From Orientallactaga sibirica (lineage: Eukaryota > Chordata > Mammalia > Rodentia > Dipodidae), in NCBI GenBank assembly GCA_036365145.1, contig JAEOAD010000603.1:992001-1056000 (forward strand): a stretch of DNA of 64,000 bases. The letters run 5' to 3'. The translations under genes were made by a program, and so were the position numbers. Positions 10,745-61,790 of the stretch are shown piece by piece. Position 1 is the stretch's first letter, and each line of letters opens with the position of its first letter. The notes under the pieces were generated by a model. The model was given only the letters and a program-made list of their open reading frames with translations, searched no databases and had not been told where the DNA came from.

Positions 10745-13290
10745 GGGAAATTTTCAAGAAAAGAAAACTATAGGCCTATTTCCCTGATGAACTTATATGC
10801 AAAGATTCTGAACAAAATCTTCACAAACCAAATTCAGCAACACATCAAAAGCATTATCCACCTTGATAAAGTATACTTTATCCCAGGAATGCAGGGTTGG
10901 TGCAGAAATCTGTCAATATAATAAACCACATAAATAAGCTTAAACACATAACCACATGATCAAAATATTGGAGAGAATAGGCATGGATGGTTTATACCTC
11001 AACATAATAAAGGCTATATATAAATCTCCTAAAGCCCAGATAATACTTAATGGGGAGAGACTGAAGGAATTCCCATTGAAATCAAGAACAAGACAGGAGT
11101 GTCCACTCTCACTTCTACTCTCCAACATAGTACTGGAAGTCATAGCTCAAGCAATAAGACAAGAGAAAGAAATAAAAGGGATACAAATTGTAAATGAAGA
11201 AGTTAACTTAGCCCTATTCCCAGAAAACATGATTTTATACATAAATGACCCAAGAAACTCCATCTCAAAACTCTTAAAGGTGATTAATTCCTTCAGCAAA
11301 GTATCAGGATACAAACTTCAATGCACAAAAATCAGTGGCCTTTCTGAATGCAAAGACACAGATACAGAGAAAGAAATTGGAGACATTGTCCCTTTTTCAA
11401 TAGCAACAACAAAAAATATATCTTGGAATAACATTAACCTTTACAATGAAAACATAAAAACACTTAAGAAATAAATTGAGGAGGACTTGAGAAGATGGAA
11501 AGACAGCCTATGCTCCTGGACAAACAGAATTAACATTGTGAAAATGACAATCTTACCAAAAGCAATATACAGATTTAATCCAATACCCATAAAAATCCCA
11601 GCATTATTCTTCAAAGAGATAGAAAATATGATCTCAACATTCATATGGAATAGCAGAAGGCCTCAGATATCCAAGGACATCCTCAGCAAAAGAAACACTG
11701 CTGGAGGCATCACCATACCTAATCTAAAGCTATATTACAAAGCCATAGTAACAAAAACAGCATGGTAGTGGCATAAAAACAGGATTATAGACCAATGGAA
11801 CAAAAGAGGACTTTGGGTCAAGTAACTACAGCTACTTGATAGCTGACAAAGGCCCTAAAAATGTAAACTGGAAAAAAGACAGCATCTTCAGCAAATGATG
11901 TTGGACAAACTGGATAACCATATGTAGGAAGGTGAAACTAGATCCACACATCTCGCCATGCATAAAAATCATGTTCAAAGGGATCAGAGACCTCAATATA
12001 AGCCCAGAAACTCTGCTACTACTGGAAGAAAAAAATAGGGGGAACTTTCCACAATATTCGAGTGTGGAAAGACTTACTAAACAAAACCCCAGTATCTCAG
12101 GAAATTAAACAATCACTCAACCATTGGGATCTCATGAAACTGTAAAGTTTTTTCACAGACAAACATACAGTAAGCAGATCCAATCTATTACCCACAGAAT
12201 GGGAGAAAAATTTTGCCAGTTATACAAAAGAGGTCTAATTTCTAGAATCTAAAAAGAGCTCAAAAACATAAATAAAAAATGAAACAAACCCACTCACAAA
12301 ATGGGACACAGAACTTAACAGGGAGTTCTCAGAGGAAGAAATACAAATGGCAAACAGACACTTAAGAAAATGTTCAACATCCTTAACCAGCAAGGAAATG
12401 CAAATTAAAACAACTATGAGATTCCACCTTACCATGGTAAGAATAACAAACATTAAAAAATCAAATGAAAACAAATGCTGATGAGGATGTGGAGAAATAA
12501 GAACCCTCATTCACTGTTGGTGAGAATGCAAGATGGTACAACCACTATGGAAAGCAATATGAAGACTCCTATAAAGGATGACTATAGAGTTATCAATGAC
12601 CCAGTTATTACCTTACTGAGCATTTACCCTAAAAGCCCCATGTCATAATAGCTAAGAACTGGAATTAACCCACTTGTCCAACAAATGGATAACCAAGATG
12701 TGGTATGTCTATCTGATGGAATTCTACACAGAAGTAAGGAAAAATGACACAATGAAATTTGAAGAAAAATGGTCAAACTTGGAACAGATAATTCTCTTTT
12801 TCAGATGGATGTAGGACCTGAGGAGAGAATCAGCCCATTGCATCTCACCAGGGCCCCAGCTGAAACCATAGAGTAATTGGGGAAATGAGCAAGAGTTCTG
12901 CCTTCTTAGTTAACCTAGTATCAGTGCAAGGGGGAAAAAGATAGACACAAACAACACTCAACTCCTACCAAACCAGAGATCCAGTGACACAGGATCCCCA
13001 GACCTCAACACTGAAGTAGAATTAAAACAAACCCAACATGGCTCATAGAAATTCACAGAAGAGGTTCCAGAAAGATTGTTAGAGCCACATGTTGGGACAC
13101 TATGCCTCTTCCCCATAACTTATTGATACCCCCACTATGAACCATCCACAATCTACATGGGGAAAATTGATATCCCCAATGAGGAGTGTTCCTTCAGTGG
13201 AGGGGAGGACAGGGAGGAGCCTAAGGATGGTACCAACATGTGCTGTTTACACACTGTGTATATATATAAAACTAATGAAAAAAACTTAAA
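10745..13290 (+). mobile_element. 5'-truncated, degenerate L1 (ORF2 C-terminal half plus 3' UTR)
   Basis: Begins abruptly inside the ORF2 reverse-transcriptase region ('aaaagaaaactataggcctatttccctgatgaac', broken here) and runs through the RT palm, thumb and C-terminal domain to about 12,790. A 3' UTR to about 13,290 follows. The frame is broken, with stops at 11,474 and 11,768. Relative to the L1 at 60.4-64 kb two internal deletions are visible: about 55 bp at 10,953, which removes RT motif A with its catalytic Asp, and about 920 bp at 12,797, which removes most of the ORF2-proximal 3' UTR. The motif C position reads F-P-E-N instead of the expected A-D-D. It is a dead copy. Confidence 0.9.
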
Positions 13291-32641: not shown

Positions 32642-33030
32642 AAAGGATGTAGATATGGCTAAGTGGGTTACAGTGTTAGATGCACAAGCATGAGGACTTG
32701 AGAGAACCTAATTAGCCTCAGTTCAATTTCCTAGCTTCCACAGAAACAGCTGAGCATGGCTATATACACCAGCAGTACAAGATCTGTGGGGAGCAGAAAC
32801 CAGAGAATAGCTGGGTAGCCAGTCTACCTAAACAAGGGAAACCCCAGGTTCAGTGAGATAATGACTCCGGAAACATGTAAATGAGTGATAGAGGAAGACA
32901 TTGGACATCCTCTTCTGGTCTCTGTCTCCATGAATATGGGGCATATGCATCTGTAAACATATGTGCATACTTCATACATAGGCAACACATTAGACACATA
33001 GACATACACCACAACTACCTACAACTAAAC
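32642..33030 (+). mobile_element. B4-like SINE (tRNA/B1 hybrid)
   Basis: ID-like left part ('gatatggctaagtgggttacag', 'gcacaagcatgaggacttgag') joined to a B1-derived right part ('gctgagcatggctatatacacc', 'gggaaaccccaggttcagtgag'), then 'cctcttctggtctctgtctcc'. This composite is diagnostic of the B4 family. Confidence 0.7.
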
Positions 33031-33293
33031 AATACACAACATTATTTGATAAAAATTGATTTTATAATTGATTTTATAAAAATGAATGAATATGTACTTT
33101 TGAGATAATTTATTAATATGTTGGCATTTTTGCAAAAATAATACATTCATGATACATTTACAGATACGTAGAAGGTATAATAGCTGTGTTAAAGCCTTAA
33201 AGATTCATTCTCTCTTGTGACCATAGCTCAGAAAGGCTGAAAGTATTCCATAGCTTTTAACTAATGTGTAAAGTATGCAATTCTACATAAAAG

Positions 33294-33453
33294 ATTTTTG
33301 TTTTGTTTTGTTTTTCTTGGTAGGGTTTCATTCTAGCTCAGGCTGACCTGGAATTCACTCTGTAGTATCAGGGTGGCCTCGAACTCACAATGATCTTCCT
33401 GCTTCTGTCTCCCAAGTCACGGGATTAAAGGCATGTGCCGCCATGCCCGGCTA
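33294..33453 (-). mobile_element. B1 SINE, reverse
   Basis: T/GTTTT tail, then 'ggtagggtttcattctagctcagg', 'gtggcctcgaactcacaatg', 'gggattaaaggcatgtgccgcc', 'atgcccggct'. Comparatively well kept, including CpG sites. Confidence 0.95.
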
Positions 33454-34240
33454 TTAATTTTTGTTTAGTTTTTCACATAAAAGCTTTTTGAAGAAACACC
33501 ATAAACAGGATAAACTCACTCATTACAACATACACATAAGATATCAAATATTGTAACAAATAACTTATGGAATATTCTACAATCCTTGTTTTGGCAGAAA
33601 ACAAATGATATTTAAATATGTAATATTCATATTTCTTTATATTAAATTACAAAAGAATGTAATTTCAAAGTGTTTAATGCCCACAAACACTAGAATTTCT
33701 TTACAAGGTGTCTTTCCTTCATGACATTGTGGATACTTCATTCCAAGCACAATAAGCTCAGAATTGTACTATCTTTAAAACCACTGTCTTTTAAAATAAT
33801 AATACCTTCTTTCCTGTCCAAATTTTTACTAGTGTTTCTAACAAGTGTTTAGTGATGAGTAGAACTCCCTTTACTGTAACCTGATAAGCTTGAGAAACTG
33901 AAATTCCTGATCTGTATTATATCTTCAGATATATTGGCTAAGGCCAGCCAGTGACACATTAAGTGCTTGATTTTATCTCAATAATGACATTAAAAAAATC
34001 TCTTAAGCATTTTCAGATGACAACTTATATTTTGAATTATAAAAGGTAACTTTGTTGTTTGTTATATGGAAAAGCTATTTTAATTGAAATAATTTTCTGG
34101 GAAGAGTGAAAAGTATATGAACACATGACCTATGAATTTTTTCATGATTAAAAACAAGTGTTAGTTTTTAAAATAATCTCACTTGTATAATCTAAATATC
34201 ACCTCCAAATATTTATTTATTTGTCTATTTATTTTTGTAA
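33454..34240. other. unassigned DNA
   Basis: Nothing recognisable. Confidence 0.45.
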
Positions 34241-34306
34241 TAGGGGCTGGGGCTATACCTCAACATGAGGGAGACCCTGGATCCATCTCTAATACCACAC
34301 AAAAAT
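34241..34306 (+). mobile_element. ID-like SINE, short
   Basis: 'ggggctggggctatacctca' and 'accctggatccatctctaataccacacaaaa' keep the ID-element order (tRNA-Ala/BC1-related) with an internal gap. Confidence 0.65.
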
Positions 34307-34429
34307 GATTTTAAAACCAATATTGTCACTAAAAATGAAAAGTGAGTAAAAATTAAATTACTTTATTGTCTTTTTTTTTGCTCTTACACTGAATTGTACT
34401 ATATTAAATTTAAAGCCATCAAAAGTTCT

Positions 34430-34795
34430 TGGGATCCCCCCTAAGGCCAGCCCAGGAGGGACGGCAGGGTCTCTGCCAAGTTGGGGGTGAGAAGCGTGGA
34501 ATCACGACACAGACTCTGGGAGTTTGGTGGAAGCAGGCAGAGGGTGAGCTGCAGCAAACTCAATTATTCAAAAAAGTGTAGGGGGTTTTAAAGGGGCTTG
34601 GATGGCCAAACATTGTATGGGGTGGTCCCCCTTTTGTGACAAATGACAGCCTGTCTCTGGACAGATCCTCTTGTAGCAGGTTTCTCACGAGCATGATAAT
34701 GTAGCTGTTGTCACGCCAGGCCTGTGCAGGACACCACTTCCTGGTTTCTTTTGCCATGCAGTCTGGCTAGGGGCAGACCTGCATTAAGCCATACA
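34430..34795 (-). mobile_element. 3' LTR of class II provirus (minus strand)
   Basis: On the minus strand the LTR would start TGTATGGCTTAATG (34,795) after a purine-rich stretch (34,796-34,815, a candidate polypurine tract). It has TATA-like 'tttaaaa' (about 34,586) and a degenerate poly(A) signal (about 34,565), and ends GGGATCCCA (34,430). The exact ends are judged from TG/CA only; the partner target duplication is not available because the 5' half of the provirus is missing. Confidence 0.6.
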
Positions 34796-35506
34796 TATCT
34801 TCCTTTTTGTTTTTATTATTGGCAACCCTAGGAGGCATGGTTCTTTGCCAAGCCATTGTTGAACCCAGTTGAACACATGTGACGGTGCCTATCTTAGGTT
34901 GCCCCATCTTATGGAGTCTTACCCGTCATTGGCTACCCACCACCCTAGTGAGAAAACCCGAGGGGTGTGGCCTGGTTTCTTCTGACATCAGTCTGGCTAG
35001 GGCCAGCCCTGCATTGTGCCAAAATCCAAGGGGTGTGGCTGACAGATAGGAGGCATGGTACGGACAAGTGGTGGTGGCTCTGTGACGTGCGACTGGTCCC
35101 AGGGAGTGAGAATTAACTATAGAACCTGAAAAAGACTGGGGTAGGACAGGTTGCTGGGTGACTGTTGTGAGCTCATCTTTAGTGTCATAATTAGTAGCAT
35201 CTAGTGTCCTTAATGTAATCAATGTTATCAAAGGAGTTGGAAAGGAATTTATGGCTGGTTGGAGGGTAGCATTACCATAAGAGGCATTAATAAGCAAAAA
35301 AGGCAAAGGTGTGGCTAAGGAGAAGTACATGCTTGAGGGGGGAGGAAAACAGTGAAATAGAGTGGCTAAAATAAAGCCTAGGAAAAACGTGGGAATATAG
35401 GCCCACCACACCAAACAAGTATGGCCTAAGAAGAGTTGTCCAAATGGTTTCTGGGAATTAGCAGCAGGGAAAAAAGGAGATAAAAGGAGAAAAGTGGGGA
35501 ATAAGT
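34796..35506 (-). pseudogene. 3' internal region of class II provirus, possible env remnant
   Basis: A minus-strand open frame of 162 codons (34,926-35,414) begins with a hydrophobic stretch that could be a signal peptide or membrane segment, which fits the position after pol where env would start. I see no cleavage site, cysteine pattern or transmembrane subunit. Its C-terminal part overlaps a copy of the U3 start (see findings), so most of env is gone. It may also be non-coding 3' sequence open by chance. Confidence 0.4.
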
Positions 35507-36580
35507 TTAAAGTCCCCTATCCAGCCTGAGGGGTTTGGCATCATCCTCTTCATCAAGGTCGATCCCTGAGTCAGTGGCTGGATGGATGTTTCTGGCAGGG
35601 ATCCAGATCGGGATCTGTGAAGTTTCTGGAAATACACAAACATACCCTTGGCCCTGTGTTAAAAGAGGTTGGGGTCCCTTCCAGATATTAGTAAGAGGAT
35701 CCTTCCAGTGGACTAAGGGTAAGTGTGTTGTGGTAGGTTGGGATCTCCAATGTTTGTAGGCTGGGGAGAGTCCTGTCTCATCAAAGGTGAGAAAATTGAG
35801 GGTGAAGAGAGCTTCCATTAGGGCCAAGTGGGGGTCCTTGGGCAACATAGTGGACTTTTGTTTTATAATTAGTTCCTTTAGGGTCCAGTTAGTTCTCTCC
35901 ATGATGGCTTGTCCTTGTGGGTTGTAGGGGATCCCAAGGGAGTGTTTTATTCCCCAAGATTCCATGAAGGATGTGAATTGGGCAGATGTGTATGCAGGGC
36001 CATTGTCAGTTTTAATTGACCAGGATATGCCCATGACCAACATGGCAGTTTTTGTAGCCTTAATGACATGGGAAGCCTTTTCCCCTGAGAGAGCAATAGA
36101 AAAAGTAAGCTTAGAGTAAGTGTCCACAATGACACGGACACATTTGAGGTTACCAAAGGAAGGTATGTGGGTAACATCCATCTGCCAGATAGAATTTGGG
36201 GCAAGGCTTCTAGGATTGACTCCTTGAGGCTGTAGGGGGCCCAAGAGGGCTGGGGGACATGCCTTACAGGTACAGGATAAATGTTTGCATTGGCTAAGCG
36301 AGAGCTCAGGGTATAGGGTTTTTAGATTAGTGGGGGATAGATGTAACCTTTGGTGTAAACATCTAGCTTGTTCTAAAGGTGGCAAGGAGTAGACAACAAT
36401 AAATTTGTCCACCTGCAAATTCCTATCAGCAATAAAGCCAAGCAGACCAGTGTGTGAGTGAACATGCTCAATAAACCAAGGGTACGATCTGTTTTCCATC
36501 TGTAATTGTAAAGTGGAGATGGCAATGTCTATGGGATGATGAGAGGACCCGGGATTGGCTAAGGGCAGTACCTTTGTCAT
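35507..36580 (-). pseudogene. retroviral RNase H C-terminus and integrase, 357 codons open
   Basis: A betaretrovirus-like pol 3' segment, open from an internal Met to a stop. Order by residue: RNase H end (about 1-60), zinc-binding HHCC domain (about 76-112: H...H, then C.C..C), catalytic core with Asp in Q-M-D-V-T (about 134), Asp in K-T-D-N-G (about 191) and Glu in A-I-M-E-R (about 228), then a C-terminal DNA-binding region with W..P..L. The DDE triad that performs 3' processing and strand transfer is therefore present. The frame continues upstream as RNase H sequence ('F-S-D-S-S-Y' just before the Met, about 36,600), so this Met is not a native start. Neighbouring RT and 3' regions are broken. 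It belongs to an old provirus, not to an infectious virus. Confidence 0.88.
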
Positions 36581-37985
36581 TTGAAGAGTGTAACTGCTGT
36601 CAGAGAAGATGTTGATGGGCTTTTGTTGACAGAGCTCTAAGACTCTGATGATGGCATATAATTCCCTTAGGTGGACTGAATGGGGGTTAGGGAACTTAAG
36701 GGATTCATCTGGTCAATTGGCTCTCTTAATAATCAGTCCATAAGTATGTTTATTGGCATCTGTAAAGGCCGAGGGTGCTAAGGGTATTGGCTGACCAGAA
36801 GGCCTGGAGAAATAGTTAGTCTATATGGGCAAAGCTGTTAGGGATTGAAGTAGTTTGTGAGTGGGGAGGTTATTGGCTATCTCATTGGGGAATCCCACCA
36901 ATTGTGGAATGGATGTGGAAAAGAGGGTCCTCCCTAAAAAGAGGTTGAAGTTCCAACATGGGGATGGGCAGAATTATTTTGGAGTGTTCTCTATTATAGA
37001 TTTTGTTAGTGTAGGTACATGCCTTAATTGCTATGAGGAGCATTGTTTGTAGGTTGGTGGTGAGTTTATGGGTCTGTGCCCATTAGGGGTGACCCAGTAA
37101 AGGGGCGATTGGTTTCACCAGATGACTCCCAAAGGCGCCCCTTCCATCCAAAGGATCACATTTAGGATTGGAGCAGACGGGTCATATCTTGTGAGTATCA
37201 TTGTAAAGAGGTAGTGGGATATTTTATGTAACAAGTTTTTGGAGTGAGCATTTAGAGGAACTTTCCTTGAAGGGTTATCAGTAACTCTAAGGAGGTCATA
37301 AAGTGATAGGAGTTCACTAGGTGGGATGAGCAAGAAAGGTTTTAGCCAATTAATTTGGCCACAGACTTTTTGGAGATCATTGAGGGAATAATGGTCCTTT
37401 TTTAGAAGGTGAGGGGTAAGTGGTTGTATAGTAGTAGAAATTTTGTACCCTAAAAATCCAAATGGGGGCACTGTTTGAATTTTTTCATTTGCTATGGCAA
37501 ACCCAAGCTTTTTGAGGTCCTCAATGAGTAGGTTAATAGGGTCCAAAAGGGAAGTCCTTGAGGTATGTGCAATCAAAAGATCATCCATGTATAAACAAGA
37601 AGGCTTTTAGATTGTATTCTTGCTGTGGCAGAGGATATAAACATTTGGCAAATAGGACTGTTTTTCATGCCCTGGGGGAGAATTCTCCATTGATATCTTT
37701 TAGATATCTTTTAGCTGGGATAGAATGTTTGGTCTCCCAGACAGTAAAGGCAAAGTAGGACCTGTCCTCTGCCACTAAAGGGATAGAGAAAAAGCAATCT
37801 TTAATATGTAAGATAACTATATGGTGGTTAATTGGAATGGCTCTAGGGGGAGGCCAGCCTGAAAGGAGCCCATTTTTAACAAATGTTTATTAACCTGGCG
37901 AAGGTCTTGGAGCAGTCTATGTTTACCAGTTTTCTTTTTAATGACAATTATGGGTGAATTATGGGGGCTAATAGAGGGCTCAATA
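36581..37985 (-). pseudogene. retroviral reverse transcriptase/RNase H remnant
   Basis: Minus strand, 5' to 3' from 37,985: finger region ('[10 protein letters not shown]' near 37,920), palm motif A ('I-K-D-C-F-F-S-I-P-L' near 37,800), YMDD active-site motif at about 37,578-37,589, thumb and connection to about 37,115, and RNase H to 36,581. Breaks: an in-frame stop shortly before YMDD, frame changes between 37,590 and 37,816, a stop near 37,115, and a 12-base tandem duplication around 37,692-37,714. gag, protease and the 5' LTR are absent: the provirus stops at about 37,985 against a reverse B4-like SINE. Confidence 0.85.
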
Positions 37986-38350
37986 TGGCATTTATGCTTG
38001 TAATTATGTGTGTTCATATGTATATGGGCACACATGTGAGTGCTGGTGTGGACATCTGTGTGCATGTTTCTGTGGATGCAAGAATCAATATCCAGTGTAT
38101 CTAGTGTCATATTTGATCATTTCCACCTTATTTTTTTGAGACAGGGTGTCTTGTTGAGCCCAGACCTCACCAATTTGCCTAAACTAGTTGGCCAGTGAAC
38201 CCCAGAGATTCTGTGTTTACACCTCTAATGAACTGAAATTACTGGTGTGTACCACTATACCTGATATTTTTAAATGGATACTGGAGATCTGAATATGGGT
38301 CCTTATACTTAGTGACAAGCACATTACCCAATGAGCCATCTCTCTAGCAC
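37986..38350 (-). mobile_element. B4-like SINE, reverse, with TG-rich leader
   Basis: A TG/CATG-rich stretch (37,995-38,090) is followed by 'tttttttgagacagggtgtcttg' (reversed B1 part), 'ggccagtgaaccccagag', and the reversed tRNA-like part 'gggtccttatacttagtgacaagcac...aatgagccatctctctagcac' in order. Confidence 0.65.
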
Positions 38351-38458
38351 TGATTTTCTGTTGTTATTCACAATGGGATAACTCTAACAAAAATGCATCC
38401 AAAATCATAAAAGCACAATATTATATACATACTTTTCTAAATGATTTTTAATATATTA

Positions 38459-38961
38459 TGTGCTATTTTAGTTAATTTTTCTTGTCAACTAGACTGGGTT
38501 GAGAAATAGCTGGAAAACAGGTAGAGAACACTTCTGATATGCCTGTGAGGATGTTTACAGAGAGAATATTATGCAGACCATAGAACTGAGGGAAAAGTTT
38601 GCCTTCAAGGGCATGTTCCTATGTATGGGAAGATTCTCATGTGCATATGAGCTTGATTATTCTTGAGTGCATATATTTTTTGCTAAATCTGATGTACATT
38701 AAAGTTCAGATTCTTCAGTCTTTGAGTGAGGACACTGCAGTTACTCTCCATGGAGCTTCCAGACTCTCAGGCACGAGCCAATGCTTCATTATTGGCCCTT
38801 GTTCTTTGGAAGCATCTAGCATCTTGGGGTGAGCTGGTTTCCCCAGCTCTCCCTGAAGATGGCAGTTGCTTGCATGTTTTAGTCTCTGATCAATCTAATA
38901 AATCCCCTCTAATAATTATACATGTGATGCATTTTTTTTTTATCTAGAGGATCCTAACACA
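38459..38961 (+). mobile_element. ERVL-type solo LTR (MLT2-like)
   Basis: TGTGCTATTTTAGTTAATTT... 'cttgtcaactagactgggttgag', 'atgcctgtgaggatgttt', 'tctgatcaatctaataaatcccc' (poly(A) signal) and the end '...agaggatcctaacaca' follow the plan of ERVL LTRs. No clear 5-bp duplication. Confidence 0.6.
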
Positions 38962-39139
38962 CTTACTGTAATGCATATTAGTGTGCAATTAATAAACAAA
39001 TATGTAGACAACATCTGAGAATATAAGCTACCTGTAGCTGTAATTAGAATTCCATAACTCAAGCAAAATGACTTCTAGAAATGATCAAACACATTTGCAT
39101 GTGACCTGAGTTATAATGGAGAGTATAGATGATGCTCTT

Positions 39140-39322
39140 TAAAAAAAACAAAAACAAAAACAAAAACAAAAAACATATGTGTACTTGTATGCATGTGCCA
39201 GAGTATCTTGCTGCCACAAATGAATGCCTGTCTGTCTTTATGTGGGTGTCTAGGGAATTGATTCCTGGCCAACAGGCTTTGCAAGAAAGTGTCTTTAGCT
39301 ACTGAGTCATCTTTCCAAATGA
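39140..39322 (-). mobile_element. tRNA-derived SINE, reverse, with (CAAAA)n run
   Basis: A plus-strand A-rich run (39,141-39,173, CAAAAA units) precedes a diverged reversed body: 'tgcatgtgccagagtatc', 'ggaattgattcctggcc', 'aggctttgcaagaaagtg', 'tgagtcatctttcca'. Confidence 0.6.
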
Positions 39323-39762
39323 TACTCTCTTTAATAATGTAAGTTCTTTGTTGTAGTGTGCTCATCAGCATCTTAACCCAGAGCATGCTTAAAATTTTCC
39401 CATTTTCAGGGCAAAAATTCAAACTCTTTACCAAGCTTGCAGCTTCTCATATTTTACCCATTGCCTTCTATTTGAAATGTAATGTACACACACTCTCTTC
39501 TTTATTTAGTTCTCAAACCTTAGGAACTTTGTTCCTAATATTTATAATGTTTCCTAACACAAATTAGACACATAAAAATATTTGTTTAATGAAAATTAAT
39601 GATTGACTAAATTCCTGATTTCAACTTAATTTGGTTTTAAATTAATTTGTGAGGCTTCTGAAGTAACTATTCTTTTTGTAAATATATATTTCCATAACTT
39701 TCATATGCCCTTAAGAAATTTATTATAAATTTTTTGTGAATTATTAATGTGCTTTAGTATTT
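39323..39762. other. unassigned DNA
   Basis: Nothing recognisable. Confidence 0.45.
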
Positions 39763-40916: not shown

Positions 40917-40921
40917 GCCTC

Positions 40922-41260
40922 TGTAGCAGACAGCTTTAGTTTCACTGAGATGAACTTCCAGACCCTGCACAGTTATGGAGGAAGGGATTTTCTGAAGCTT
41001 ACAAATCCATGGGAAGTTCCATAATGGCAGAAGAATCTGGTCTGCCTTCACAGTTCCAAGCACAGACTGAAAAGCCACAAGCCAAAGCCACATAGCACAG
41101 CACACTTCAGGAACTCCAGCTAGACACACTTTTCATATCTTTAGATTGAAATCTCAAACCCACCACCACAACTTCAGATCCACCCACTGACACTGCAGAT
41201 GCAAACTAAAAACTAATAAAACATTGAATATATTGGCAGACATCTATTCAAACTACCACA
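40922..41260 (-). mobile_element. MaLR 3' LTR
   Basis: 339 bp, TG...CA on both strands. About 85-90% like its partner by eye. It lacks an 18-bp block (around 41,208) that the partner keeps between two 'ctgc' repeats. Confidence 0.88.
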
Positions 41261-42249
41261 TTTCTTCCCTGGCCCCCAATATATTTATAACTATCACACA
41301 TTGTAAATTGTACTCAGTCCAATTTCAAAGGTCCCCACAGTCTTGACTAACTTAAGATAGTTTTAAGGTCCCAAGTCTCATCTGAGATTTAAGATCATCT
41401 CTTATCTGTGAGTCCTGCAAAATCAAACAAGTTATATACTTCCAACATTTAAAGGCACAGAGTAAACATTTTTAACTGGTATAAGGCATAGCAAGGAGGG
41501 ACTAGCACAATGCAAACTCAACCACCATAAGCAATCATCAAACTTCTGCAGTTCAAGTTCAATATAACCAGAGACTGACAGTCTCCAGGTTTTCCAATTC
41601 CACCCCTCCAGTTGGGCAGAGTATCCAGGGAAAACATCCATCCAAGGCCAACAGTGCACTCCATGGTAGTCCTTGCACAGTCTTGATATATCAAAATGTT
41701 TTCAGGTCTCCACACAAACCATGGTCCATCTTCCAAAGGCTCAGCCTATCAGGGCATCATGCCCTGCCTCATGCTGCATCTCAACAGTGGCTCCTGGAAC
41801 CATGTGCAATTCATGACCACTCCACACATTTTTCATGCCTTTGAAACCAATACCAGGTGTGCAGGACACAGCCATATTCTTAATTCAGGGACAAAATAAA
41901 TAATAACCTTGAGAAGTAGGTTCCTTCTCCAGTCAACTCTTTCCAAAAGAGTTTGCATTTCTAACAGTCTTTCCTCAGGCATCTTCTCCATTGTTTTAAT
42001 GTAAAGCAGTCAGGCTAATGTGTTGACAATAGCAGCTTCACTAACCTAAAACCAGTCTCACTGCTTCTAATTTTAACTTGCTTTAGGTTTTCCAACTTGA
42101 AATCTTAAATCGCTCAGTCCAATCTCTCAGTCCAATATCTTTAGCCTGAAGGGACCAAACTGATGCCATGACAGGCTCCACTAAGGCACCACCATAGCTA
42201 GGCCTAGGTTTCAATTTTCTGGAGGGACAGACAAGATTTCTCAGAAACC

Positions 42250-42702
42250 TAAAACAAAGGGACATTAATCAAAGGGACATTAATCAATGACTGCCCTGAC
42301 CAGAAAAAGGCTGAGTCAGTTCTTATAAAGTCACCAGACTTGTCCCTTTTGCTCCAACCAATCAAAGGTATACAAATGTAACTGCCACTTGCTTAGCCAA
42401 TCATATTAGGAGATTACCTCACCTGCTTAAGATTCCCCTAGACCTAGCTTCCAAAACCCTAAGACCAATCAAAAACTGCAAGTACAGTACTGTTCAAATT
42501 AGCCAATCATGTTAAAAGACTAAAAGCCCACCAAAATTCCTTTAGCTGTGCTTAAAAGGAGCCTGGAAGCTCCTCCTGGGGTCACCATTTTGTATGAATG
42601 GCTGACCCCTGCATGCTGGCTGATTCTGCAGAATAAACAGTCTTTGCTTTTACATATTATTTGACTCTGGGGTCTTTCTTCAGTGATTTTCAGACCCTTA
42701 CA
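42250..42702 (+). mobile_element. gammaretrovirus-like 5' LTR
   Basis: U3 contains a 15-bp tandem repeat (42,256-42,285) and four CCAAT motifs (42,358, 42,397, 42,465, 42,503). A TATA-like 'cttaaaagg' lies near 42,551 and AATAAA at 42,632-42,637; the end is 'cccttaca' at 42,702. The final 240 bp match the 3' LTR. The left edge is approximate. Confidence 0.75.
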
Positions 42703-42704
42703 TT

Positions 42705-42722
42705 TGGGGGGCTCTTCTGGGA
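42705..42722 (+). other. primer binding site, tRNA-Pro-like
   Basis: TGGGGGGCTCTTCTGGGA, two bases after the LTR. It resembles the proline-tRNA primer site common in gammaretroviruses, with one extra G and two substitutions. Confidence 0.75.
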
Positions 42723-43160
42723 TCACTGGGGACCCCCCAGACTCAATAGTGGAGCGATTCTAGGAGAACAATAGATTCCTAGCTGATTGGAGAGTTAGGG
42801 TGCCCCTCTGTACTGTGTGTCTTTGTTCTGCTCTATTCTTTGTTCTGTTTTAGGTAATTCTGGCATCCAGGCGCAATCTGGAGGCCCATAGAGGTGAGGC
42901 TGATGAGCCACATATTAACTTGGGGCCAAGGGGTTCCGAGGACACTCTGGACCCCCTTCTGGTGGAGCTGGAGGGCTCCCACCTGACTTTGGTTTTAATA
43001 GACACTGATGCGCCCATCTGGTGGAGCCCGTTCACAGGATAGACCATTGTCAGAAGCATTTGAGTGTCTTTTTCACTTCCCAGGAAATTTGTTTTTGAGT
43101 CTGTGTGTCTATGTCTTGTTTGTCATTTCTACTTTCTTGAAAGTTTCCTTGAAAGGTACT

Positions 43161-43223
43161 ATGGGACAAGCAACAAGTTCCACCCCACTGGACCTAGTCC
43201 AGTCACACTTCAAGGATTTCTGA
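43161..43223 (+). pseudogene. gag start (matrix N-terminus), stopped after 20 codons
   Basis: Met-Gly at the start gives the N-terminal glycine used for myristoylation of gammaretroviral matrix. The frame ends at TGA 43,221. Matrix-like sequence resumes at about 44,200 beyond the inserted element, so gag was split by insertion as well as by point mutation. Confidence 0.75.
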
Positions 43224-43793
43224 TGCTTGGAGGAGAATCTGGGTTTAACAGTATGGACGGGAAAACTAACTGTTGGGCCCTAAGAGGCCCCGGTGTGAGG
43301 CCTAGTGGTTCTGAGCCTGGCTAGAGTTTAGCAACCTGTCCTTGGCCTACTCCTGCTTGTGAGGCCTAGTGGAACTTTATAAGCCTGACTAGAGTTTAGC
43401 GACCTGTCCTTGGAGTGACTCAGCAAGGCCTAAGCTGAAACTGCCTCCACCCACCCACTGCTGACGTGGTGAAATACTATTGGCCCTTACACCTTTATTT
43501 CATCCTTTTTCCCACCCTCTTTCTCAAAATATATAAACACCTTCCCATGACAATAAACTGAGTTTTTCTGCCTTGACAGACTCCCGGCTCAATGTGGTTT
43601 TTCTCCCCGGTGTTTTAGGGGGGGAGGGGTTTGAGCTGCGACACCTGTTTTCCCGCTCAGCCTCAAGAGGATCCGGCTGGACTGGCTCTCTCTTCCGCTC
43701 TACCTGCCGGTGGAGAAGAACCAGCAGACTGGTGCCCTGTGTGAGGAACAGTAAAGCATGGATCTACCGGCTGGGGGAAAGGAACCGGCAGAC

Positions 43794-43809
43794 TGGTGAC
43801 CCCGACGTG
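43794..43809 (+). other. primer binding site, tRNA-Trp-like
   Basis: TGGTGACCCCGACGTG, three bases after the LTR end. It is complementary to the 3' terminal 16 bases of mammalian tRNA-Trp as I recall them. A second, degenerate LTR-end/primer-site unit lies just upstream (43,701-43,740). Confidence 0.7.
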
Positions 43810-44036
43810 ACGAAGGAAAAATACGAAACTACGCTAACGGGCTAATCGGACTGCGGTCGGGTGTACACTCATAAATTATGAGGTAGTCTTCATATCTAAT
43901 ATTCTAACCTTTGCTTCTGTAACCTGTGCTTGCTTCAACATCTTTTCATTCCTTTCTCTTTCCTTTCATTTCCAGGTTGCCGGCAAACCACATCTGCAGT
44001 GCCTGTATTTCTAAATGGGTCATATGTTCATGGCGG

Positions 44037-44160
44037 ACACACCACGTGGGTAGACCTAAAAAAAGAAACTCACCACGTGGATAGATCTAGAGGAGATTCA
44101 CCACATGGGCAGACCTAAAAAAAGAAACTCACCATGTGGATAGATTTAGAGGAGACTCAC
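44037..44160 (+). repeat. tandem repeat with four E-box positions
   Basis: Two 59-60-bp units, each made of two half-units of about 30 bp. The core hexamers are CACGTG (44,043-44,048), CACGTG (44,074-44,079), CACATG (44,102-44,107) and CATGTG (44,133-44,138), spaced 31, 28 and 31 bp. The first two are perfect E-boxes; the last two are what C-to-T decay of the central CpG on either strand would give. Confidence 0.85.
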
Positions 44161-44193
44161 CATGATCTACCGGCCGGGGGAAAGGAACCGGCA

Positions 44194-45585
44194 ACTAACC
44201 ATCTTTTGCAAGAATGAATGGCTGGCTTTCAAAGTGGGATGGCCAGATGGAAGCACATTTCACCTCCCCACCATTTGCAAGGTTAAAGATATTGTGTATG
44301 GGAATCCTGGGCATCCTGACCAGGTCCCATACATCTTGGTATGGCAATATCTGGTGGAGAGCATCCCCTTTTGCCACCAGCCCCAGTAATCTTGTCAGTT
44401 AAGGAGTCAGGGTTGCCAAAGGACTGCAAGCCAGTGGTCCTGCCCCCTTCTGCCCCCAAGAAGGATGGATACCCAGCTCCCTATGTACCTGCCTCTGTGC
44501 CAGAACCTGTACAGCAGGTAGTAGCTGCTGATCCAGGCCCAGGGGAAAAAGGAGGAAACATAATAAGTCCTCCCCATACACAGGCTTGGACTGCGAGACA
44601 GGCAGACTCCCCAATGATTGTACTGTTTCTATGGACAATTGCCCACCCCCCCCCCAATCAGGAGGGCCAACAGTTTGTGACTCATATCCCTTTTTCTACC
44701 AGTGACTTATATAATTGAAAGATGCAGAACCCAAAGTTTTCTTAGAAACCTTCATCCATCCTCAACTTGTTAGATTCCATAATGATAATCCATCAGCCCA
44801 CTTGGGATGATTGTCAACAGCTCTTACAGGTTCTTTTTACTACAGAGGAAAGGAAATGAATTCTAACTGCTGCCTGGACCTGGTTCCTGAAAACTGGTTC
44901 CTGGACCTAAGAGTTAGCCCACAGCTGTACAGGTTGACATGGATACAGCTTTCCCTTAATCTGCCCAAATTGGGATCCCAACAGCCCTGCAGGTAAGGAG
45001 GGAGTGAAAGCCTACCATTAGATTCTGATAGGAGGTCTCTGAGAGGCTGCAAGAAATCCCACAAATTTATCTAAGGTAGGACAGGTTATACAAGGTAAGG
45101 AGGAAAGCTCAGGGTCCTTTTTAGAGAGACTATTAGAAGCATACCAGACTTACACACGCCTGGAGCCAGAAGCAAGAGGAAACCAGTCTGCTGTAAACAA
45201 GGCCTTTGTCAACCAGGCAGTGCTAGACATCCACAGGAAGCTCCTGTGACTGAATGGTTTCCAGGGTAAGCAGATGTCAGAACTTGTAGCTATAGCAGAC
45301 AAAGACAAAGTTTATAATAATAGAGAAACTCCAGAAGACAAACAGACCAGAGGCTTAACAAAATTGCTACTGGCTGCCACAGGAAAATCTGACCCAAGGG
45401 AATTAAAATCCATGGCTTATGACAGAGACAGGAGCAAATCTGCTTCACAATTGAGAGGGGAAAGGCAACACCCACTCTGTCTCCAAAAAGACCAACGTGC
45501 TAATTGTAAAGAAATGGGACTTTGGAAAGATAAATGTCCAAAAAGACAAAAATCCAAAAGTTTTACAAGTAGGAGAACTCAGTAA
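44194..45585 (+). pseudogene. gag remnant: matrix end, proline-rich region, capsid, nucleocapsid
   Basis: Matrix-like text (W-L-A-F-K-V-G-W-P, then H-P-D-Q-V-P-Y near 44,310) runs to about 44,389. A proline-rich p12-like stretch in another frame (about 44,390-44,715) ends at a D-L-Y-N capsid-start-like motif. Capsid with the major homology region (Q-G-K-E-E-S...F-L-E-R-L, 45,091-45,170) contains many stops. The last 103 codons (45,274-45,585) are open and end in a nucleocapsid box (45,490-45,541). In that zinc knuckle the first Cys is Arg and the His is Leu, so it should not bind zinc normally. Confidence 0.82.
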
Positions 45586-45599
45586 CTGAGGGCATCAGG

Positions 45600-46100
45600 G
45601 CTCACATCCCCTCCATAAGCCCTGGGTAACCTTAAAGGTGGAGGGGAAACCAGTGGACTTCCTGGTCAATACTGGGGCTCAACATTCTATCCTAAAACAA
45701 CCTATGGGACTCCTGTCCACCAAAAGGATGTGGGTCCAGGGAGCCACTGGGACTAGTCAATACTCATGGACTACCCAAAGAGAAGTGGACTTAGGAATGG
45801 GATGGGTAACCCATTAATTCATGGTCATACCTGGGTGCCCATATTCACTTGTGGGGCAAGACCTCTTGACTAAAATGGGGGTACAAATCCACTTTAGCCC
45901 CAAGGGAGTGCAGGTTCTCAATCAGAAGGGTGTTAACCATGTCCCTGCAGGAAGGGTACAAACTCTATAACTCACCCTCCCAAGCTAGCCCTGAGAGCCC
46001 ATATCTGAGGGAACTATAGGAAAAGATTCCAGGTGTATGTTCAGAGAAACATCAGACCAGACTTGCCAAACATCGGGCCCCAATCATGGTCCAATTGTGG
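45600..46100 (+). pseudogene. retroviral protease and start of RT, inactive
   Basis: Follows gag in the gammaretroviral order. The active-site box reads L-V-N-T-G-A at 45,662-45,679: the catalytic Asp is replaced by Asn (codon AAT 45,668-45,670). Flap-like G-A-T-G follows near 45,745. A stop lies near 45,815 and another near 45,967. The last recognisable piece (A-K-H-R-A-P near 46,065) is the protease/RT boundary; from about 46,100 the sequence is LTR. Confidence 0.78.
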
Positions 46101-46326
46101 GCCAATCAAAAAAACACAAGTATAGTTAATGTTCAAATTAGCCAATCATGTTAAAAGACTAACCACCCAAATTCCTTTAACCATGCTTAAAAGGAACCTG
46201 CAAGCTCCTCCTGGGTTATGAATGGTTGACCCCTACATGCAGGCTGTTTCTGCAGAATAAACGCTCTTTGCTTTTACATACTATTTGACTTTGGGGTCTT
46301 TCTTCAGTGATTTTTGGACCTTTACA
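46100..46326 (+). mobile_element. gammaretrovirus-like 3' LTR, 5'-truncated
   Basis: Matches 42,460-42,702: 'ggccaatcaaaa', 'ttcaaattagccaatcatgtt', 'aaaggaacctgcaagctcctcctgg', AATAAA at 46,256-46,261, 'ggggtctttcttcagtgatttt'. It lacks the upstream U3. Confidence 0.85.
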
Positions 46327-46548
46327 AGTGAAGCACATCAGTCCATTACAAATTTAACCTCGATCAAATTCTCTGGGTCTAGGCAGTAGAGCACTTCCAG
46401 CCCTTATGCCAGTATCTCAGTTCCAACAAAGGCCTCTGCAGTCCTTCCTGCCCCTTAGAAAACTCATAAGCCAAGCCTCAAAGTTCAATACTGTCTGCAC
46501 TTAGCATTCTCAAACTCTAATCAGAATAGCCCATAAAACGTGGCTTAC

Positions 46549-46804
46549 CAGGCTGGAGAGATGGCTTAGCAGTTAAGGTGCCTGCCTCCTAAGCCTAAGA
46601 ATGCTGGTTCCAATCTCCAGCCATTCCAATCTCCAGGTCCCACATTTAGCCAGATGCAAAGTCACGCAAGGGCACAATGCCGCACTTGACCACAAGGGGG
46701 CGCACACATCTGGATTTCATTTGCAGCAGCTGAGAGGCTGCTGGAGCATCCATCTCTATCTGTCTTCCTCTCCCTCTCTCTCTGTCTCTCCCCCCAAAAA
46801 AAAA
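46549..46804 (+). mobile_element. tRNA-derived SINE, longer subtype, inside MaLR internal DNA
   Basis: Full head and body with the extra 'gccgcacttgaccacaagggggcgc' segment (broken in reading), ending in an A run. Target duplication aaaacgtggcttac (46,535-46,548) / aaaacttggcttac (46,805-46,818). Confidence 0.93.
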
Positions 46805-46921
46805 AAAACTTGGCTTACTGCTCCAGAAGGCATCTTCACTTGCAAGCACCAAGTCCATGCCAGTTCCTCCAAAACAAAGGTTCCAAAAGATGAACATCCA
46901 CATGGTTAGGTTCGTCTCACT

Positions 46922-46937
46922 CCACATTCTGGTACCA
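46922..46937 (-). other. primer binding site, tRNA-Leu-like
   Basis: Minus strand reads TGGTACCAGAATGTGG five bases after the 5' LTR. It begins with the TGG complement of a tRNA CCA end and resembles the 3' end of a tRNA-Leu isoacceptor, as used by MaLR/THE-like elements (family knowledge). Confidence 0.65.
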
Positions 46938-46942
46938 ACTTC

Positions 46943-47300
46943 TGTAGCAAACAGCTTTAGGTTGCCTGAGAGAAACTTCCAGACCAGGCAAAGTTATGGA
47001 GGAAGGGATTTACTGAAGCTTACAGATCCAGGGGAAGTTCCATAATGGCAGAAGAAGTTGGTCTGCCTTCACAGGTCCAAGCAAAGATAGAAAAGCCACA
47101 AGCCAAAAGCCACATAGCACAGCACACTTCAGGAACTCCAGCTAGGCATACTTTGCATATTCTTAGATTGAAATCTCAAACCCACCACCACACCTTCAGT
47201 TCTGCCCAGTGACACTGCCTCCATCCAGGTGGCTGCAGATGCAAACTACAAACTAATAAAACATTGAATATATTGGGGACCACCTATCCAAACTACCACA
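46943..47300 (-). mobile_element. MaLR 5' LTR
   Basis: 358 bp, bounded by TGTAGC and ACCACA on the plus strand (TGTGGT...GCTACA on the coding strand). Poly(A)-signal-like 'cagtaaatccc' near 47,005 on the minus strand. Confidence 0.88.
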
Positions 47301-47389
47301 GCCTCCAAAACCAGCATTTTAAGCAGTATATTTTACACTTATAAACATATATGTGATGCACTGTATTCATTTCTTTGTTGTTGTTGCCA

Positions 47390-60019: not shown

Positions 60020-61790
60020 TAAACAAACTTTGAGAAGGCAAATTTGATCAAGTGGATAAAAGAGACAACTCAAATTAACAAAATTAGAAATGAAAACGGA
60101 AAGATCACACAGATATGAGTGAAATTGGGAAAATCATCAGAACTTACTTCAAAAACCTCTATAAAATGGAGGAAATGGATGAATTCTGGAAACATACCAC
60201 CTACCACAGCTAAACCCAGAGCAGATTAATCTCCTAAACAACCATCAAGACTGAAAGGGTAATCAAAAACCTCCCTGAAAAGAAGAGTCCAGGACCAAAG
60301 GGCTTCTCAGCTGAATTCAAATCTTCTTGGAAGAACTGAAACCAATTTTTCTCAAATTGTGCCACACAATCAGGGAACAGGTAAAGCTCCCCACCTCCTT
60401 CTCTGAAGCTAGTAGCACCCTAATACCAAAACCAGGCAGAGATGCCACAAGAAAAGAAAACTACAGGCCTATTTCCCTGATGAACTTAGATGCAAAGATC
60501 CTGAAAAAAATCCTCATACACCAAATTCAACATCACATCAAATCCATTATCCGGAGGAAAAAAAAAAGCATTATCCACCTGGATCAAGTAGGCTTCATCC
60601 CAGGAACACAGGGATGGTTCGATATACAGAAATCTCTCAATGTAATACACCACATAAATAAGCTTAAACACAAAAACAACATGATGATTTTAATAGATGC
60701 AGAAAAGACCTTTGAAAAAATACCACATCACTTCATGATCAAAACATTGGAGAAACTAGGCATGGACAGTCTATAACTCAACATAATAAAGGCTATATAT
60801 AAAGATCCTAAAGCTGAAATAATAATTAATGGGGAAAGGCTGAAGGAATTCCCACTGTGAACAGAAACAAGACAGGGGTATTCACTCTTACCTTTGCTAT
60901 TCAACATAATACTGGAAGTACTAGCTCCAGCCATAAGAGAGGAGAAAGAAATAAAAGGGATACAAATTGGAGAGGAAGAAGTTAAGTTAGCCCTAATTGC
61001 AGATGACATGATTCTATACATACGTGACCCAAGAACCTCCATCTCAAAACTCTTAAAAGTGATTAACTCCTTCAGTAAAGTAGCAGGATAGAAAATCAAT
61101 GCACAAAGGCTGATGGGATGGCTTAGCAGTTAAGGTGCTTGACTGTGAAGCCTAAGGATCCATGTTTGATTCTCCAGATCCCATATAAGCCAAATGCACA
61201 TGGTTGTGTATGCGTCTGGAGTTTGTTTGCAGTAGCTAGAGGCCCTGACATGCCCGTTCTCATTCTCTCTCTATCTTTCTCCCTCTCTCTGTCTCTAATA
61301 AAGAAATAAAAATAAATCTTTAAGAAAATCAATGCAAAAAATCAGTATCCTTTATATATGCAAAATACAAAGAAATAACAATGAAATAACAATGGAAGTG
61401 AAAGACCTTCACAAAACAAACATAAAAACACTCAAGAAAGAAATTGAGGAGGACCTGAGAAAATGGAAAGACCTCCCATGCTCCTGGATGGACAGAATTA
61501 ACATTATGAAAATGGCAATAGTAACAAAAGTAATATATAGATTTAATGCAATACCAATAAAAATTCCAACATCTTTCCTCACAGTGATAGAAAAAGTGAT
61601 CTCAGAATTCATATGGAATGGCATAAGGCCTCGAATATCCAAGCATATCCTCAGCAAAAGAAACACCTCTGGAGGTATCACCATACCTGATCTAAAGCTA
61701 TACTACAAAGCCATAGTAATAAAAACAACATGGTACTGGCATAAAAACAGGATTATAGACCAATAGAACAGAATCTAGGACCCAGATTTT
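60020..61790 (+). pseudogene. L1 ORF2 reverse-transcriptase remnant
   Basis: Begins at the endonuclease-RT linker (I-N-K-I-R-N-like text near 60,080). It passes K-K-S-P-G-P (60,280), Y-R-P-I-S-L-M-N (60,460), motif A with I-D-A-E-K-T (60,690) and motif C A-D-D (61,000). Stops and a SINE at 61,104 split it. RT would copy L1 RNA at a nicked target; this copy cannot. Confidence 0.85.
61104..61323 (+). mobile_element. tRNA-derived SINE inside L1 RT region
   Basis: Flanked by gaaaatcaatgca at 61,091-61,103 and 61,324-61,336; interrupts the ORF2 remnant. Confidence 0.94.

Follow-up and report, generated by a model that had tools for sequence, protein, structure and literature searches.

A nest of three endogenous proviruses in Orientallactaga sibirica, the innermost from a class II family whose tandem primer-binding sites both appear to have been used

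Introduction

What is the innermost element of a nest of retroviral sequences in the genome of the rodent Orientallactaga sibirica, and at which primer-binding site was its copying begun? The nest occupies positions 40,917 to 47,305 of a 64,000-nucleotide stretch of contig JAEOAD010000603.1 (GenBank assembly GCA_036365145.1, positions 992,001 to 1,056,000, forward strand), here called the window, in whose numbering all coordinates are given. A preliminary description, made from the letters of the window, took the nest to be a minus-strand MaLR provirus containing a plus-strand gammaretrovirus-like provirus, which in turn contained a third long terminal repeat (LTR) element. The nest is by itself ordinary, such nests being commonplace. 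We put at roughly 0.85 the probability that it reflects three successive germline insertions and that the third element comes from a class II endogenous retrovirus (ERV) family with tandem primer-binding sites, both of them usable.

Structure and class of the innermost element

The preliminary description gave the third element as one LTR element at 43,271-44,193, flanked by the duplication ACTAAC and lying within the matrix (MA) region of the gammaretrovirus-like provirus. We find its extent, duplication and location as described; its true structure had been missed, and with it the tandem primer sites. Rather than one LTR, it comprises a 520-bp LTR, a leader and a 30-bp LTR tail (Table 1), arranged in the order LTR end, GAC, site 1 (tRNA-Met), spacer, second LTR end, GAC, site 2 (tRNA-Trp), leader, tail and duplication. 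The tail matches the second LTR end at 29 of 30 bases, and the first at 24 of 30. As a gauge for ACTAAC, flanks match over 6 bp by chance in 200 of 400,000 random pairs. Read by eye, the spacer upstream of site 2 is of the Met-Met type and the leader downstream of the Met-Trp type, as if the window copy had recombined at the primer site.

LTRs of this third family were sampled at 40 scored places (of 3,691 candidates), all of which were read. Solo LTRs with 6-bp duplications, one of them mismatched, account for 24 of these, and they fall into two length classes, 442-460 bases (21/24) and 498-522 bases (3/24). The other 16 are the window copy, seven LTRs preceded by a polypurine tract, six proviral 5' LTRs (including that of L008; L numbers are our handles for loci), L004, and L030, which has a short LTR end without a duplication. 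The count of solo LTRs leaves out L001, L004 and L008, which a looser script scan had called solo and which were dropped by hand. In L004, about 34 extra bases separate the LTR from a flank that matches its 5' flank.

No gag is left in the third element. We assign its family to class II (betaretrovirus-like, ERVK) because a relative, L048, carries Gag_p24 (E=4.6e-37) and Gag_p10. Most human group II ERVs use a tRNA-Lys primer; the third family has Met and Trp sites, with one Lys-like site (15/18, in L043). A tRNA-Lys primer is no strict requirement of class II: the primate family ERV-Hako is group II with a tRNA-Trp primer, a feature stated to set it apart from all other human ERV types (PMC11905727).

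Tandem primer-binding sites across the family

A search pattern for a Met site followed by a Trp site, with three positions left open, matched 16 places including the window, and its reversed-pattern control matched none; a Met-then-Met pattern gave nine matches in seven loci, again with none for the reversed control. Among the latter, one locus has four Met sites at 64-bp spacing, and a second has three together with a Trp-like site. L043 has an array of Lys-like, Met and Trp sites (after 1458), and the LTR of L059 embeds a Lys-like site. Forty proviral leaders were scored and 38 read: 26 are Met-Trp, seven tandem Met only, four single Met by script, and one single Trp; L105, scripted as single Met, holds a Trp site with one inserted base. 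A tRNA-Met(CAT) gene in this genome has the 3' end that site 1 requires, and site 2, where found, matches tRNA-Trp at 15-18 of 18 positions, the search threshold having been 13 or 14.

Of the 22 proviral 5' ends with tandem sites, 13 contain, some 1.35-1.9 kb past the LTR start, a same-sense segment that shares 70-95% identity with the window's MaLR internal sequence (L045, L046, L047, L049-L053, L055, L056, L075, L080 and L081); L048 has gag at that position. Copies with this segment are possibly a non-autonomous class II subfamily that captured it from a MaLR internal region.

Which primer site was used

During retroviral reverse transcription, the position of the tRNA primer sets the LTR end; an LTR end would then mark the primer that was used. 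In the mechanism we propose, each tandem site has a copy of the LTR end in front of it, and synthesis on one RNA could start from either. Priming at site 1 would give a short LTR and leave site 2 in the leader, while priming at site 2 would give a long LTR that encloses site 1.

The spacer usual in Met-Trp copies was found at 25 places. Fifteen of these continue into site 2 (14 Trp, 1 Met), nine are long-type solo LTRs in which site 1 is embedded and whose duplications match at 6/6 (eight) or 5/6 (one), and the last, L114, was assigned to neither group. Four of the nine long-type solo LTRs carry deletions elsewhere in their sequence, which make them no longer than short ones. Long-type LTRs number three in the sample of 24 solo LTRs, one of them common to these nine. 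Six Met-only arrays were also followed: L008 (paired with L071) has a long LTR and a 6/6 duplication, L075 (paired with L086) has a long LTR, a 5/6 duplication and a single unit of its four-site array embedded in that LTR, and L073, L074 and L078 have short LTRs and 6/6 duplications; L079 went unread, and L047 and L080 were left out of this tally.

Judged by these LTR ends, both primer sites appear to have been used. The window copy, with its long-form LTR and matching tail, is a probable product of priming at site 2; together with the spacer it suggests tRNA-Trp itself as the primer there.

Several observations weigh against this reading. For each of 15 Met-Trp pairs followed, the 5' stretch and a separate 3' stretch were read, and in all ten with a readable 3' LTR that LTR is short (duplications 6/6 in seven, 5/6 in L053, imperfect in L050 and absent in L042). 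The other five pairs were uncalled, four having no LTR in the fetched stretch and L043 having another array, and none of the Met-Trp proviruses followed combines a full pair of LTRs with a 3' LTR of the long type. The case for Trp use at site 2 draws on the window copy, which is truncated, and on solo LTRs, which lack site 2. Site 2 was matched to a generic tRNA-Trp sequence, not to a gene of this genome; recombination could account for some of the spread of tandem units; and the loci from the Met-then-Trp pattern search were picked by near-perfect sites, and are hence biased to young copies.

There is a further explanation for the long LTRs, which we think unlikely: that only the first site is functional, and that unequal exchange copied the LTR-end unit into LTRs. 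The uniformly short 3' LTRs of the Met-Trp proviruses (10/10) would suit it, as would the observation that units also multiply in tandem, to four in L075. Against it, an exchange that followed integration would not determine where the integration boundary lies, yet in the long-type LTRs the second LTR-end copy is the terminus, directly against the duplications, at 9 of 25 spacer places, and the same boundary recurs in 3 of 24 sampled solo LTRs and in the pairs L008/L071 and L075/L086. Nor does it sit easily with the 15-18/18 match that site 2 keeps to tRNA-Trp where found.

Our preference is for priming at both sites, and we lean, at somewhat better than even odds, towards a broader interpretation: that a natural germline family kept tandem sites for two tRNAs, that the choice between them set LTR length, and that arrays grew to as many as four sites and gained tRNA types, which would be a route to a change of primer that does not begin with loss of the old one.

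We consider it very improbable that the third element is a single 923-bp solo LTR with incidental internal matches to primer sites. It does begin with TG, end with CA and carry a 6-bp duplication, but the sampled solo LTRs are 442-460 bases (21/24) or 498-522 bases (3/24) long, not 923; the 17/18 tRNA-Trp site comes right after the 520 point; and the last 30 bp of the element duplicate the LTR end. Furthermore, 40 places out of 1,561 candidates were scored for the junction between leader and tail; the window itself has it, and the 39 others do not.

Comparison with known systems

Primer switching between tRNAs is known in ETn, murine leukaemia virus (MLV) and human immunodeficiency virus (HIV) (PMC7472051). 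Like the third family, these move between tRNAs; in them one site is replaced, whereas in the third family two tandem sites coexist with duplicated LTR ends. Li et al. 1997 is cited in PMC11181671 for a laboratory HIV-1 with dual primer-binding sites, complementary to tRNA-Gly and tRNA-His. This virus likewise keeps two primer sites in one genome, although it is a laboratory-derived lentivirus, while the third family is a natural germline one with LTR-end copies between its sites. The LTR1 lentiviral vector carries an additional primer site (PMC5542766) and so also has two primer sites on one RNA, but it is engineered, uses the same primer at both, and differs in layout and purpose. ERV-Hako shares with the third family its group II membership, its tRNA-Trp primer and a duplication of 5-6 bp (PMC11905727); the available text mentions no tandem primer sites, and the likeness is one of description.

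Among the literature matches listed, which were abstract openings and mostly on unrelated subjects, there was no natural case of tandem primer sites. Two candidate precedents, PMC11962862 and PMC11774494, were rejected, their available text being about PCR primers.

If our reading is true, the third family is a fossil record of primer use, in which the LTR end tells which tRNA-binding site started synthesis. The question of how retroviruses change their tRNA primer would become testable by counting, and primer-site choice would be one source of LTR length variants that might otherwise be mistaken for separate subfamilies.

The outer proviruses and the order of insertion

Table 1. Features of the nest by position in the window
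Feature	Position	Strand	Remarks
MaLR-like provirus target duplication, GCCTC	40,917-40,921 (left); 47,301-47,305 (right)		Flanks both outer LTR ends
MaLR-like 3' LTR	40,922-41,260	minus	Pairs with 46,943-47,300
MaLR internal, 3' part	41,261-42,146	minus	Related stretch in another MaLR copy, L087
ERV1 provirus	42,147-46,326	plus	In MaLR internal region
ERV1 target duplication	AGCC 42,143-42,146 (left); AGTG 46,327-46,330 (right)		Empty site in L087
ERV1 5' LTR, 556 bp	42,147-42,702	plus	Alignment of three other LTR copies
tRNA-Pro-like primer site, 15/18	42,706-42,723	plus	0/30,000 random stretches score as high; generic tRNA sequence
gag start, MA N-terminus, up to stop codon	43,162-43,223	plus	By eye; no Pfam match
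Third-element target duplication, ACTAAC	43,265-43,270 (left); 44,194-44,199 (right)		Flanks 43,271-44,193
Third-element 5' LTR, long form, 520 bp	43,271-43,790	plus	Begins element; class II family
Short-form LTR end, embedded in long LTR	43,699-43,726	plus	21/24 sampled solo LTRs end about here
Primer site 1, tRNA-Met (elongator), 17/18	43,730-43,747	plus	tRNA-Met(CAT) 3' end from this genome
Primer site 2, tRNA-Trp, 17/18	43,794-43,811	plus	Generic tRNA sequence
Leader	43,791-44,163	plus	59-bp tandem repeats at 44,036-44,162
3' LTR tail, last 30 bp, long form	44,164-44,193	plus	Matches second LTR end; remainder of LTR deleted
Remaining MA	44,204-44,386	plus	Gag_MA E=4.6e-14, profile 37-93; PDB 1uhu, 1mn8
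Capsid p30, C-terminal part	45,043-45,246	plus	Gag_p30 E=9.1e-19; PDB including Moloney MLV capsid 1bm4
Protease, N-terminal part	45,590-45,814	plus	RVP E=2.6e-9; PDB 3nr6 E=2e-22
Protease, C-terminal part	45,818-45,967	plus	RVP E=0.0017, below Pfam cut-off
ERV1 3' LTR remnant	46,104-46,326	plus	Aligns to 42,466-42,702
MaLR internal, 5' part (a)	46,327-46,546	minus	Related stretch in L087
Short interspersed element (SINE) target duplication, 14 bp, 1 mismatch	46,535-46,548 (left); 46,805-46,818 (right)		Copies compared
SINE	46,551-46,804	plus	Inside MaLR part; head matches 18 other window places
MaLR internal, 5' part (b)	46,813-46,942	minus	89% match adjoining MaLR LTRs in L078, L069
tRNA-Leu(UAA)-like primer site, degraded	46,909-46,937	minus	Local score 28; just inside 5' LTR
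MaLR-like 5' LTR	46,943-47,300	minus	Pairs with 40,922-41,260

The minus-strand MaLR provirus had been placed at 40,922-47,300 with GCCTC on both sides, and so we find it. Its two LTRs are of one family, with 304 of 339 aligned bases identical (89.7%; 35 differences), and a 5-bp flank match, the gauge for GCCTC, arises by chance in 618 of 400,000 random pairs. Matched to a generic tRNA sequence, the tRNA-Leu(UAA)-like site scores higher than every one of 30,000 random 35-base stretches drawn from the window. Other copies of this LTR family were checked for duplications in the fetched loci, where the remaining rows were cut or were not solo LTRs: L007 (GAAGT) has a 5-bp duplication, L061 (GTGGG) has one by eye, and L003 has no clean one. 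The internal region totals 1,236 bp and contains short open reading frames only, according to the list of such frames. The label MaLR, a class III-related, non-autonomous group, is supported by the LTR pair, the 5-bp duplication and the tRNA-Leu-like primer site.

For the gammaretrovirus-like (ERV1) provirus, the end at 46,326 stands, and we place the start at 42,147, from which two of three other LTR copies align; in the third the alignment begins at 42,146. All three share the end at 42,702, and two of them lie between 4-bp duplications. Its coding pieces were run separately against Pfam and the Protein Data Bank (PDB), and matches to Gag_MA, Gag_p30 and RVP confirm the gammaretrovirus-like label. 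Coding is disrupted by stops and frame changes, and a putative start of reverse transcriptase at 46,020-46,103, read by eye, had no match in Pfam or the PDB.

The interior and the 5' half of the 3' LTR are deleted, such that the start of pol (by eye) joins mid-LTR near 46,104. Out of 1,940 candidates, 40 places were scored for this junction: the window itself spans it, and the 39 others match the LTR alone. Both inner proviruses would have lost their interior and the 5' part of the 3' LTR, and would have done so after integration, because the two LTRs of each are unequal. That these deletions are inherited subfamily traits was considered and rejected, since each junction is spanned by the window alone among 40 scored places.

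Target duplications had been noted at two levels, GCCTC and ACTAAC; the middle element has one as well, AGCC/AGTG. L087, a MaLR copy beside another provirus, is continuous across the ERV1 site and has AGCC once, and is therefore an empty site. Most likely, on this comparison, the ERV1 insertion duplicated 4 bp and the right copy then diverged from AGCC to AGTG. Here too there are points on the other side: AGTG differs from AGCC at two positions, and a single copy supplies the empty site.

The order of insertion is read from the nesting: the MaLR-like provirus first, the gammaretrovirus-like provirus next, into the MaLR internal region, and the class II provirus last, into gag. This is the order first proposed, and it agrees with the existence of the MaLR region without ERV1, as seen in L087, with CpG content and with the low LTR divergence of the third family. 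The ratio of observed to expected CpG is 0-0.08 in the MaLR parts, 0-0.19 in the ERV1 parts and 0.49 in the third element, against 0.08 for the remaining window, a ranking to be read with the caveat that families may differ in starting CpG content. Kimura two-parameter (K2P) distances between third-family LTR pairs are 0.026-0.086 (n=14, median 0.0545), the pairs being mostly chosen by well-kept primer sites and so leaning to young copies; by these distances the innermost family is younger than the outer two elements. The MaLR pair had been expected to be the most diverged, a ranking that the data neither show nor contradict: its K2P of 0.111 (bootstrap 0.074-0.150) ties with the 0.113 (0.071-0.168) of ERV1. 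LTR divergence, then, does not place MaLR before ERV1, which also counts against us. Nested retroelement clusters have been processed with REANNOTATE (PMC2672092), and on the available text the present nest has in common with those an order taken from nesting and LTR divergence as a clock, differing solely in the clock tie of its two outer elements.

Least probable of all is that the outer LTR pair consists of unrelated solo LTRs brought together in a chance cluster, for although repeat clusters are common, these LTRs share family, strand and an outer duplication, a primer site lies next to the 5' LTR, towards the interior, and the MaLR internal sequence flanking ERV1 is continuous in L087.

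Nesting recurs elsewhere: L078 (with L087) and L031, further copies of the third family, have MaLR internal or LTR sequence at their flanks.

Other features of the window

The SINE reported in the MaLR part is there, within its own duplication, and would have entered independently of the provirus insertions. It may be a member of the Dip family. The Dip family occurs in jerboas and birch mice, according to the available part of PMC8466645.

Rfam gave nothing at gathering threshold on the nest, and ARAGORN nothing on the window. A second retroviral remnant, at 34,929-37,606 on the minus strand, retains pieces of the reverse transcriptase thumb, RNase H and integrase; there are no repeats of at least 40 bases within 33,000-39,500, and so no LTR pair was seen around it. 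Finally, RVT_1 fragments lie at 10,947-11,474 and 60,318-60,776 on the plus strand, and are probably LINE-1 remnants.

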